A stretch of 64,000 nt of DNA, from positions 1,426,001 through 1,490,000 of the forward strand of contig NZ_CP022584.1 of NCBI RefSeq assembly GCF_002240225.1, read 5' to 3'. Every line of letters starts with the position of its first letter. Positions within the stretch are counted from its first letter, which is position 1. The position numbers and the translations under genes were made by a program. The notes below the pieces were generated by a model that did no database searches, was not told where the DNA came from, and saw only the letters and a list, made by a program, of their open reading frames with translations. Positions 21,621-24,294 of this stretch are shown here, one piece after another. Source of the DNA: Paenibacillus physcomitrellae (GTDB taxonomy: Bacteria > Bacillota > Bacilli > Paenibacillales > Paenibacillaceae).

Positions 21621-21649
21621 AAAAAAAACGATCCAAAAAGGATCGTTTA
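21621..21649 (-). terminator. Terminator of sigG
   Basis: AAACGATCC and GGATCGTTT form a 9-bp stem with a TTTTT loop and a run of eight T residues. The sigG stop codon lies within the first arm, so termination is immediate. Confidence 0.92.
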
Positions 21650-22429
21650 TGACTTCACATGTTTCTGCATTTGTACAATAGCGGATTTCTCTAAGCGGGA
21701 AACCTGGGCCTGGGAAATGCCGATTTCATCGGCGACCTCCATCTGTGTTTTGCCTTCAAAGAAACGCATAGACAAAATCATTTTCTCCCGTCTGCCCAAT
21801 CTCTGCATCGCTTCGCGGAGCGCAATGCCTTCAATCCAGGAAACGTCCTTGTTCCGGTCATCACTGATTTGGTCCATGACATAAATCGGATCCCCGCCAT
21901 CATTATAAATCGGTTCAAACAATGAGACAGGGTCCTGAATGGAATCAAGTGCAAAAACAACGTCTTCCTTGGGAAGACCAAGCGCTGCCGAAATTTCAAG
22001 CACAGTTGGTTCTCTTGAATTCTGATTCGTCAGGCTGTCACGCATTTGCAGCGCCTTGTAAGCAATGTCCCGCAGTGAACGGGATACCCGGATCGGATTG
22101 TTGTCCCGCAGATACCTGCGAATTTCACCGATGATCATCGGCACAGCATAAGTTGAGAATTTGACGTTCTGGGACAGATCGAAATTGTCTATTGCCTTCA
22201 TGAGACCGATACATCCGACTTGAAACAAATCATCGACGAACTCGCCCCGGTTGTTAAAGCGCTGGATAACGCTGAGCACGAGCCGCAGATTTCCATTGAC
22301 CAACTTTTCTCTTGCTGCTCGCACGTGGTCCTGCTGCAAAGACACAAATAGTTCACGCATTTCCGCATTCGTTAGCACTGGCAGTTTCGCGGTATCCACA
22401 CCGCAAATCTCGACTTTGTTTCGAGCCAT
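21647..22429 (-). CDS. sigG: RNA polymerase sigma-G factor (forespore, late)
   Basis: Sigma G directs late forespore transcription. The 260-residue protein has region 2 (NLRLVLSVIQRFNNRGEFVD, DLFQVGCIGLMKAIDNFD, FSTYAVPMIIGEIRR), region 3, and a region 4 HTH ending in TQMEVADEIGISQAQVSRLE. The N-terminus ARNKVEICGVDTAKLPVL is a signature of sigma G. The ATG at 22429 is 9 bases from GGGAGGT. It follows sigE directly, as in B. subtilis, and has its own sigma F/G-type promoter. An upstream hairpin can hide its ribosome site. Confidence 0.97.
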   Translation of the reverse strand: MARNKVEICGVDTAKLPVLTNAEMRELFVSLQQDHVRAAREKLVNGNLRLVLSVIQRFNNRGEFVDDLFQVGCIGLMKAIDNFDLSQNVKFSTYAVPMIIGEIRRYLRDNNPIRVSRSLRDIAYKALQMRDSLTNQNSREPTVLEISAALGLPKEDVVFALDSIQDPVSLFEPIYNDGGDPIYVMDQISDDRNKDVSWIEGIALREAMQRLGRREKMILSMRFFEGKTQMEVADEIGISQAQVSRLEKSAIVQMQKHVKS

Positions 22430-22442
22430 CGTGTCATAACCT

Positions 22443-22479
22443 CCCAAGGTGAAACATTAATGTTCATTATCTCCTTGGG
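22443..22479 (-). promoter_or_regulatory. RBS-sequestering hairpin before sigG
   Basis: CCCAAGG (minus strand, 22479-22473) is the exact complement of CCTTGGG (22449-22443), whose GGG is part of the sigG ribosome site GGGAGG. The loop contains a perfect palindrome AACATTAATGTT (22453-22464). The upstream arm overlaps the -10 of the sigG promoter, so only transcripts coming from spoIIG could contain both arms. Confidence 0.72.
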
Positions 22480-22493
22480 CTGTCTTTTTATTC
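22466..22493 (-). promoter_or_regulatory. Sigma F/G-type promoter of sigG
   Basis: The minus strand has GAATA (22493-22489) and GGAGATAAT (22474-22466) 14 bases apart. The first fits the sigma G -35 (GHATR), and the second fits every fixed base of the sigma F -10 (GGNNANANT). The start point would be near 22459. In B. subtilis this gene is read first by sigma F and then by sigma G. Confidence 0.72.
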
Positions 22494-22534
22494 CTGAAAA
22501 AGTTTAAAGAAGGGGAAGCCTTCCCTCCTTGTAC

Positions 22535-23257
22535 CTAAACCATTTTGTTAAACTCCTTGCGCAGCCGCTTGATGATCCGTTTCTCCAGGCGGGAGATGTA
22601 GGACTGTGAAATACCGAGCAGATCGGCCACATCCTTCTGCGTCTTCTCCTCCCCTCCCTGCAGGCCGAACCGGAGCTCCATGATCATTCTCTCCCTGTCG
22701 GACAGCTTATCCAGCGCTTTGTGCAGCAGCTTGCGGTCCACCTGCTCTTCGATGTTCCGGTAAATCGTATCATTCTCCGTACCCAGCACGTCGGACAGCA
22801 GCAGCTCATTGCCGTCCCAGTCAATGTTCAGCGGTTCGTCAAAGGAGACCTCGGTGCGGATTTTGTTATTACGGCGCAGATACATCAAAATTTCATTCTC
22901 AATACAACGCGAAGCGTATGTAGCGAGCTTGATCTTTTTCTCCGGGTCGAAGGTGTTAACCGCTTTGATCAGACCGATCGCCCCGATCGAAACCAGATCC
23001 TCGATATTAATGCCTGTATTCTCAAACTTTCTGGCAATATAAACGACAAGCCGCAGATTACGTTCAATCAGCATCGCCCGGATAGCCGTATCCCCGGAAG
23101 ACAATTTCTGCAGTAAATATTCTTCTTCTTCACGGGTCAAAGGAGGCGGAAGCGCCTCACTGCCCCCAATATAATAGATCTCTTCGCTTTTGAGCCCGAA
23201 CATAAACAGAAACCGATAATACTGAAGCTGCAGGCGCAGCTTTAATTTTACACCCAT
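22535..23257 (-). CDS. sigE: Pro-sigma E, mother-cell sigma factor precursor
   Basis: Sigma E controls early mother-cell gene expression. The 240-residue precursor has a basic amphipathic pro-sequence (residues 1-28), which SpoIIGA removes just before [13 protein letters not shown], the conserved mature start. Region 2 ([40 protein letters not shown]) and region 4 HTH ([20 protein letters not shown]) are complete. The ATG start follows GGGAGGAAAA. It follows spoIIGA by 32 bases, forming the spoIIG operon. Confidence 0.98.
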
Positions 23258-23289: not shown

Positions 23290-24294
23290 TCAACTGCTTT
23301 TCCGCTCTGCTTCAAGACCTGTCTGAGTAGACAATTCCTTAGCAAAAGAAACTTGTGAACCTTCCTGTTCTGTGCCCGGCTCTACGAGCGCAGGATGGAT
23401 GATGGCCTGATATGCCCCTTCGGCTGACAACTTTCCTCCATCCAAACCGATCAGCACCCGGCGGGATACATGCATTTGTTCTCCGACTCTAATCCGGACT
23501 TCGTCCGGTTTCATAGCAAGCATAAATTGGGAGCTTTTGTTGATCCCCCGGTAAGGCACGAGGCGCAGACGATCTCTCCACGGGAACACGTCCATTTCCC
23601 CAAGCTCGAGCAGAAGGTTGTCCGCTTGACCTTGGGCGAGCTTCTCTTTCCAGCCGGAAGGCAGCACATCCTGCCAAAGCAGTGCTTCCATCACCATAAC
23701 CGGCATACGGGTCAGCGGATCCGTCAGCTGGTTGCCGGTGTCGATAAGACCTTGACAATGAATCGAATGGCCTTCAATCAAAACCTCAACTTCACCGGTG
23801 TAGGCAGCCAATCTTTCCTGCCTTTGACGACTGTTCTGAACGGCTTTGAAGCCCAAGAGGACGACCGCAAACCCGACAAGCGAGAAGATGGAACCTACCT
23901 TAAGCCTGAAGCTCATCCCGCCCGATTGGGTAAACATGATTCCGTTCCACAGCTCACTGGAGCTCATCAGCAAATAATGAATGCCCAGGATGCCGCCGGC
24001 GGCAACGAAATTCACCACATAAAAGGCTCCCAGATTGCGCATATAATTCTGCAAGCTGCCAAATCCGAAAGCCAGCCACAACATCACAACAGAGAATAGA
24101 AATTTAGTGAGGAACGTATACATAAATGACAGCTGAGGTAAAAACATCATCAAACAGTAAAGCGCCCCTACGACGGCCGATAAACTGACTCGCCAGATCT
24201 TCGGCTTCTGCTTGCGCATCCAGGCAGTAGTCAGCAGCAGCGCACCATCGATAAGCAGATTGGTCAAAAAAATCAAATCGATATAAACTACCAT
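23290..24294 (-). CDS. spoIIGA: SpoIIGA, pro-sigma E processing protease
   Basis: SpoIIGA is a membrane aspartic protease that matures pro-sigma E after SpoIIR signals from the forespore. The N-terminal half has five membrane segments (residues 4-160). The C-terminal half carries the single catalytic site in GLIDTGNQLTDPLT (near residues 180-193), as in retroviral-type dimeric proteases. The start ATG follows GCAGGTG. It is the first gene of the spoIIG operon, directly after ftsZ and its terminator. Confidence 0.95.
   Translation of the reverse strand: MVVYIDLIFLTNLLIDGALLLTTAWMRKQKPKIWRVSLSAVVGALYCLMMFLPQLSFMYTFLTKFLFSVVMLWLAFGFGSLQNYMRNLGAFYVVNFVAAGGILGIHYLLMSSSELWNGIMFTQSGGMSFRLKVGSIFSLVGFAVVLLGFKAVQNSRQRQERLAAYTGEVEVLIEGHSIHCQGLIDTGNQLTDPLTRMPVMVMEALLWQDVLPSGWKEKLAQGQADNLLLELGEMDVFPWRDRLRLVPYRGINKSSQFMLAMKPDEVRIRVGEQMHVSRRVLIGLDGGKLSAEGAYQAIIHPALVEPGTEQEGSQVSFAKELSTQTGLEAERKSS

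Follow-up and report, generated by a model that had tools for sequence, protein, structure and literature searches.

The sporulation gene sigG follows spoIIGA and sigE in the same orientation, and the transcript of the upstream genes would run into it. This arrangement raises the question of how read-through RNA could be kept from producing sigma G before, or outside, the forespore. The window analyzed here, a stretch of 64,000 nucleotides from Paenibacillus physcomitrellae, had been given a preliminary description, according to which sigG has two RNAs with opposite translation fates, decided by a hairpin that overlaps its own promoter. The answer favored by the present analysis, at a probability of about 0.7, is that an anti-Shine-Dalgarno arm inside the sigma-F/G promoter of sigG would fold the read-through RNA shut.

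The sigG promoter and the predicted folds of its two RNAs

In the window, the order spoIIGA-sigE-sigG is found on the minus strand, with sigG immediately after sigE (Table 1). The product of sigG scores 491 bits with the NCBIfam model TIGR02850 (spore_sigG, cut-off 457), and the first gene of the series is presumably spoIIGA, as judged from its protein sequence. The program-made list of open reading frames opens the sigG frame at an upstream TTG, reaching 22447. Read 5′ to 3′ on the minus strand, the leader consists of GAATA AAAAGACAGCCCAA GGAGATAATG AACATTAATGTTTCACCTTGGGAGGTTATGACACG ATG. An out-of-frame ATG (TTATGACACGATGG, 22437-22427) is located two bases past the ribosome site, just ahead of the sigG start, and the leader end of the locus L025 is identical to that of the window, this ATG included. 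In the gap from sigE to the sigG promoter, four overlapping predictions (401 bases scanned, mean of 0.4 in shuffles) mark a terminator-like hairpin, and the T-run following it is weak. Clearer terminator-like hairpins occur at this place in some relatives, e.g., L102, L103, L152, and L184.

Table 1. Positions of genes and sequence elements at the sigG locus of the window.
Feature	Positions	Strand	Basis or remark
spoIIGA	23290..24294	minus	precedes sigE
sigE (spoIIGB)	22535..23257	minus	upstream gene; its transcript would run into sigG
Terminator-like hairpin, gap between sigE and sigG promoter	22507..22530	minus	terminator prediction
−35 element GAATA, sigma-F/G-type promoter	22489..22493	minus	sequence and comparison of loci
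Upstream arm CCCAAGG	22473..22479	minus	five bases in promoter spacer, two in −10 element
Extended −10 element GGAGATAATG	22465..22474	minus	sequence and comparison of loci
12-base palindrome AACATTAATGTT	22453..22464	minus	at start region
Predicted transcription start, short RNA	22458 ± two bases	minus	inferred
Downstream arm CCTTGGG	22443..22449	minus	overlaps first three bases of ribosome site
sigG ribosome-binding site GGGAGG	22440..22445	minus	sequence
sigG coding sequence	21647..22429	minus	start ATG 22429-22427, protein MARNKVEIC...

The promoter is composed of GAATA, a 14-nt spacer, and GGAGATAATG (22493-22465), the last of which matches the sigma-F consensus, GGNRANAHTR. A GHATA-like −35 element with a GG-type −10 element was parsed at 189 of 197 sigG loci, the parse failing at the other eight, and the two elements are separated by 14 nucleotides in 182 of the parsed loci and by 15 in seven. 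Such spacing agrees with Mearls 2018 (PMC5942855), whose accessible text gives a shortened spacing of 14 bp for 14 of 15 Bacilli. A genome-wide control was uninformative, the promoter pattern being matched 22 times and its reversed form 19 times. The start of transcription was set at the seventh base following the −10 element. At the locus L207, this rule puts GGAGG at +19 to +23 and CTCCT at +10, the positions published for the site and hairpin of B. subtilis sigG (PMC5942855, as accessible). For the window it predicts a start at 22458, one base from the 22459 proposed earlier and downstream of the upstream arm, so that RNA initiated there would be devoid of that arm. The promoter does overlap the arm, as the preliminary description had it: they share the two bases GG of the −10 element, and the rest of the arm lies in the spacer.

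The two arms form an exact complement of seven base pairs, Watson-Crick throughout, at the positions first reported for them. In the read-through RNA, the seven pairs have predicted probabilities of 1.0, 1.0, 1.0, 1.0, 1.0, 0.99, and 0.94, which hold when 0, 40, 80, 120, or 160 nt of upstream sequence are included. Beyond an A.A mismatch the predicted fold adds two pairs (22471-22470 with 22452-22451), and three further ones form on the outer side (22484-22482 with 22440-22438), leading to 12 promoter-leader pairs, of which seven are contiguous. Within GGGAGG, just the GGG is part of the 7-bp stem, which takes up two of the five bases in GGAGG; owing to the outer pairs, the last G is predicted to be paired too. 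The predicted cost of opening GGAGG is 7.8 kcal/mol for the long (read-through) RNA, compared with 2.9 for the short (promoter-started) RNA. The idea that read-through RNA hides the site thus holds for the opening cost, which is clearly higher, but not for the pairing as such, since three of the six site bases lie in the stem and both RNAs have a similar mean unpaired fraction (0.40 in the long, 0.45 in the short).

The complementary claim, that promoter-started RNA leaves the site free, is not supported in that wording. In the predicted folds the site is still partly paired in the short RNA, which is predicted to retain an ACCT-TGGG-AGGT pairing, and its opening requires 2.65-2.98 kcal/mol when transcription is assumed to begin at any of five positions around the predicted start. 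The 12-base palindrome noticed in the loop exists, but it is not conserved; its core ACATTAATGT occurs in 22 of 65 distinct Paenibacillaceae leaders, and the palindrome was rejected as a functional element.

The proposed mechanism would operate as follows. Read-through RNA from spoIIGA-sigE would carry the arm, which would pair with the leader and the beginning of the ribosome site and thereby lower sigG translation. Polymerase with sigma F or sigma G would start about 15 bases downstream of the arm, making this fold impossible, and the promoter-started RNA would keep at most the weaker local hairpin. The outcome would be sigma-G protein produced solely where sigma F or sigma G is active. The promoter spacer would be a convenient place for such an arm, because sigma factors hardly read the spacer sequence. 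The start point, the read-through RNA in P. physcomitrellae, the effect on translation, and the benefit, which is silence before or outside the forespore, are what we infer from the arrangement. If the mechanism is true, a single stretch of DNA would enforce the cell-type specificity of sporulation twice, at initiation by the promoter and at translation by its spacer. It would also show why read-through into sigG does no harm, assign a role to a spacer sequence usually taken as neutral, and provide a sequence signature for finding other cell-type-specific genes whose misexpression is costly.

Spacer-to-site pairing at sigG loci of Bacilli and beyond

The sigG set was formed by the window, the best 80 of at least 595 confirmed stretches, and, out of 159 matching genomes, 128 from outside Paenibacillaceae and 17 from within. 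Among the 128 non-Paenibacillaceae loci, 116 were oriented and 12 were not oriented by motif. The 206 parsed leaders include 32 duplicates, leaving 174 distinct sequences under 34 family labels, 12 of which hold one sequence. The C-terminus of SigE is encoded within the fetched stretch at 200 of 205 loci, whatever its position there, and at 178 of 206 a SigE-like C-terminal stop motif precedes the promoter; the read-through geometry is therefore general.

The spacers of many families contain a plain anti-Shine-Dalgarno sequence, such as CCCTCC, or CCTCCTCAGGA facing TCCTGAGGAGG. Further matches between spacer and site are CCCCCC facing GGGGGG and CTCCCTCC facing GGAGGGAG, and both sides have changed in a matched manner in L069 (CCTCGG/CCGAGG) and L061 (TCCCGG/CCGGGA). 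The predicted cost of opening the site, averaged by family, is 10.2 kcal/mol in the long RNA and 3.1 in the short, and it is higher in the long RNA under all 34 labels. This contrast alone proves little, because a longer RNA folds more in any case, and the weight therefore rests on the tests in which only the spacer was exchanged. The native folding energy lies below that of own-spacer shuffles in 34/34 family labels and below that of foreign-family spacers in 33/34, while the pairing of the site to the spacer exceeds shuffles in 33 labels and foreign spacers in 31. At the best register, native arms form on average 8.48 of 10 pairs, compared with 7.69 when the ribosome-site half comes from a different family (sd 0.15, maximum of 8.06 in 300). 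The table of pair types was built on 15 representatives, each the best-paired sequence of a family whose commonest register is −4, a choice that makes the table lean to pairing, so that it is not proof. Part of the pairing, that of GGAGA with the leader CTCC, is set by the −10 element. Taken as a whole, the spacer-only controls point to selection on the anti-Shine-Dalgarno arm across Bacilli.

Two further ideas were rejected. The −10 GGAGA does not behave as an anti-anti-Shine-Dalgarno element freeing the site in the long RNA, which is harder to open under 34/34 labels, and the hairpin is not stronger where a terminator between sigE and sigG is absent (31 loci with, 143 without, p 0.70).

Some groups show peculiarities of their own. 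In Brevibacillus and like genomes (f21; L064, L110-L112, L117, L119, and L226), the sigG leader is long, roughly 120 nt, and contains an inverted repeat, GTTCCTAAACC ... GGTTAGGAAC, which is imperfect at some of these loci. This leader looks like a group-specific structured 5′ leader. In the Alicyclobacillus-like loci of f6 (L070, L073, L076, L080, and others), the sigG site is GGGGGG instead of GGAGG, and CCCCCC in the spacer matches it in L070, L076, and L080.

Within Paenibacillaceae, the opening costs of the long and the short RNA are at least 1 kcal/mol apart in the expected direction for 47 of the 65 distinct leaders, and in the opposite one for four. The mean pairing of site to spacer is 0.64 for native spacers, 0.81 for foreign ones, and 0.34 for shuffles. 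In an alignment of 56 sequences, a ten-pair helix shows 87.9% paired cells, compared with 51-66% for its slid versions and 86.4% in column shuffles, none of which (0/500) reached the native value. Two-sided changes are not in excess in this alignment (two pairs vs. 2.3 in shuffles), and its covariation score was reached by 27 of 500 shuffles. Both same-genus genomes (L083 and L084) have CCCG in place of the CCAA of the window; the long RNA of L083 is easier to open than the short one (2.2 vs. 3.8), and that of L084 is harder (7.2 vs. 4.9). The lock in Paenibacillaceae is modestly supported by these predictions as present, but short, variable, and drifting, with weak covariation.

Outside Bacilli, 40 of 128 matching genomes were fetched, representing 37 family labels, and the promoter was parsed under looser rules at 35 loci and not parsed at five. 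The elements are separated by 15 nucleotides in 30 of the 35. The pairing of site to spacer is near chance (0.19 vs. 0.15 in shuffles), with strong exceptions in L418, L420, L440, and L442. At 21 of 35 loci the whole fold is stabler than the mean of its shuffles (p 0.001), with nine at or above the 95th percentile, so that other classes have some spacer structure too, mostly away from the ribosome site.

The pairing could be a by-product, in which the −10 GGAGA and the leader CTCC with the ribosome site are conserved for other reasons and the spacer match of the window arose by chance. Several of the results would fit such a reading: regardless of the spacer, the leader is paired to the GGAGA side in most of the 56 Paenibacillaceae sequences in the alignment, the same-genus L083 and L084 are without CCAA, two-sided change shows no excess in the family, and 11 of 40 other-family spacers fold as stably as the native one in the window. 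We consider it unlikely, since native spacers outdo their own shuffles under 34/34 family labels when nothing else is changed, and since in the window a complementary run of at least seven is reached in just 147 of 20,000 shuffles of the 14-nt spacer alone, with 0 of 40 spacer shuffles folding as stably as the native sequence. It also has to accommodate the near-chance pairing in other classes, seen at the 35 of 40 loci parsed, and the chance values of gpr, spoIVB, and spoVT described below.

Three other explanations assign the effect to a different element or process. The small leader hairpin may act alone, with the spacer arm irrelevant; such a hairpin lowers translation 2-4 fold in a B. subtilis experiment (PMC5942855, as accessible), and CTCCTTGGGAGG, which permits a local CTCC-TTG-GGAG hairpin, is present in 52 of 65 distinct Paenibacillaceae leaders. 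This is very unlikely, given that CACC replaces CTCC in the window, L028, and L067 and breaks the hairpin while the spacer arm of the window is intact, and that the spacer-only result across family labels would be left unexplained. Still less probable is that a sporulation repressor uses the inverted repeat as its DNA operator. The dyad does surround a promoter, and in B. subtilis spoIID is repressed by SpoIIID, and spoIIM and spoIIP by GerR, according to the accessible part of PMC517825, but the arm sequences vary among taxa with complementarity kept, and a SpoIIID-like motif was found in three of 174 sigG promoter-leaders, the window among them. The least credible of these alternatives is that the read-through fold terminates transcription or invites cleavage instead of blocking the ribosome. 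In its favor, a separate terminator-like hairpin is already in place at 22530-22507; against it, the sequence 3′ of the arms has no T-run, all four terminator predictions lie elsewhere, and the site itself pairs to the spacer above shuffles in 33 of 34 family labels. The arm inside the promoter remains the preferred reading.

Signs of a similar layout at other early spore genes

A promoter-agnostic test was applied to further spore genes, in which the region −95 to −24 was shuffled and the difficulty of opening the site was compared. The loci were the best 30 of 79 (spoIIR), 47 (spoIIM), 59 (spoIVB), 49 (gpr), 54 (spoVT), 46 (spoIIP), and 49 (spoIID) matching genomes, spoIIP and spoIID being named in advance and tested last. 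The test excludes 17 of the 174 sigG rows, which had no start or site; dropped as well were 6 of 150 loci of spoIIR, spoIIM, spoIVB, gpr, and spoVT, 1 of 60 of spoIIP and spoIID, 12 of 69 sigE rows, and 20 of 72 spoIIGA rows.

The mean rank of sigG against shuffles is 0.81 in 65 Paenibacillaceae and 0.86 in 92 others, and that of five other genes is 0.47-0.56. The share of loci at or above the 95th percentile, expected to be 5%, is 0.35 and 0.68 in these two sigG groups. It is raised for spoIIR (0.50 of 28), spoIIM (0.50 of 28), spoIIP (0.43 of 30), and spoIID (0.31 of 29), and amounts to 0.03 of 30 for spoIVB, 0.07 of 29 for gpr, 0 of 29 for spoVT, 0.04 of 57 for sigE, and 0.10 of 52 for spoIIGA. 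A helix scan placed the best arm just 5′ of a −10-like CATA in 23/28 spoIIM, 16/30 spoIIP, 11/29 spoIID, and 11/28 spoIIR loci, and in 0/30 spoIVB, 3/29 gpr, and 2/29 spoVT controls. By a stricter count, p 0.05 was reached at 13 spoIIM, 6 spoIIP, 9 spoIID, and 6 spoIIR loci, with 1, 2, and 3 in the respective controls. The loci examined were L238-L267 and L388-L407 for spoIIR, L268-L297 for spoIIM, L448-L477 for spoIIP, and L478-L507 for spoIID.

The gene spoIIR had been chosen as a negative control; it behaved otherwise and became a lead. Its promoter was parsed at 28 of 50 loci (22 without a parsed promoter), where spacer-only shuffling left the native value below the shuffle mean in 22 of 28, eight being at or above the 95th percentile, and the pairing of site to spacer was 0.51 vs. 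0.45 in shuffles. In the genome of the window, the arm was not found at spoIIR (L388), and spoIIM (L292) ranks at 0.23 among shuffles. Among 14 strong and 14 other loci of each gene, the SpoIIID motif occurs in one strong locus and three others for spoIIM, and in one strong locus and five others for spoIIR.

The genes sigG and spoIIR are transcribed with sigma F. In B. subtilis, spoIID, spoIIM, and spoIIP are sigma E genes (PMC517825, as accessible). The layout at spoIIR, spoIIM, spoIIP, and spoIID may be regarded as a lead, not proof, and pyrimidine tracts of sigma-E promoters or GerR and SpoIIID operators are possible alternatives. A wider reading is that Bacilli employ promoter spacers generally to lock the spore genes that act early and in one cell type. 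At the two sigma F and the three sigma E genes, an anti-Shine-Dalgarno arm immediately 5′ of the −10 element would fold shut any RNA that the right sigma factor did not start, and gpr, spoIVB, spoVT, sigE, and spoIIGA, where the lock would matter less, would be without the arm. We hold this reading tentatively, at somewhat less than an even chance; it was lowered slightly because the spacer-to-site pairing of spoIIR and the strict helix counts are modest.

Comparison with known systems

In the literature searched, no description was found of anti-Shine-Dalgarno arms occupying the spacer of the sigG promoter across the whole of Bacilli. Neither was the same layout described at spoIIR, spoIIM, spoIIP, or spoIID, or as a general spacer feature, among titles and abstract beginnings that covered few subscription papers. 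What is new here is the class-wide spacer arm, whose pairing appears non-random, together with signs of the same layout at other early spore genes. The mechanism in outline has already been published for B. subtilis, and the window is a new, reduced case of it. Sun 1991 is reportedly a second reference for the large read-through hairpin of B. subtilis sigG.

According to the accessible text of Mearls 2018 (PMC5942855), the translation of RNA reading through from the spoIIG promoter has been proposed to be blocked by a hairpin of 20 or more pairs, and, with a citation of Masuda 1988, RNA initiated at the sigG promoter is stated to be unable to form this large hairpin. The distribution of the large hairpin in other species is not treated in that text. 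The preliminary description had mentioned a B. subtilis leader hairpin that lowers sigG translation. That hairpin is indeed published, as the separate small one at the ribosome-binding site whose 2-4 fold effect was found by experiment; beyond it, the idea of two fates was itself already in print, in the form of the large hairpin (PMC5942855, as accessible). The window fold resembles the large hairpin of B. subtilis sigG (spoIIIG) in that it concerns the same gene after spoIIGA-sigE, is predicted in read-through RNA only, and has its upstream arm 5′ of the predicted start point of the promoter. It differs in size, with seven contiguous pairs of 12 instead of 20 or more and just part of the site covered, and probably works like the large hairpin rather than being the same structure. 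As in the small hairpin, leader bases of the window may pair with the ribosome site. The small hairpin, however, belongs to the promoter-started RNA, where in the window the change of CTCC to CACC breaks it and a weak alternative is predicted instead.

A further example of such an arrangement is gene e of phage T4, a phage lysis gene of unrelated sequence in which timing rather than cell type is controlled. As described in the accessible part of PMC3014915, a fold in the long early RNA of this gene covers the ribosome site and about 100-fold less lysozyme is made from it, and the late promoters are located upstream of the site, inside the 5′ portion of the inhibitory fold. The window repeats this geometry, with the arm at 22479-22473 inside the promoter at 22493-22465, and its fold would be inhibitory in the same way.
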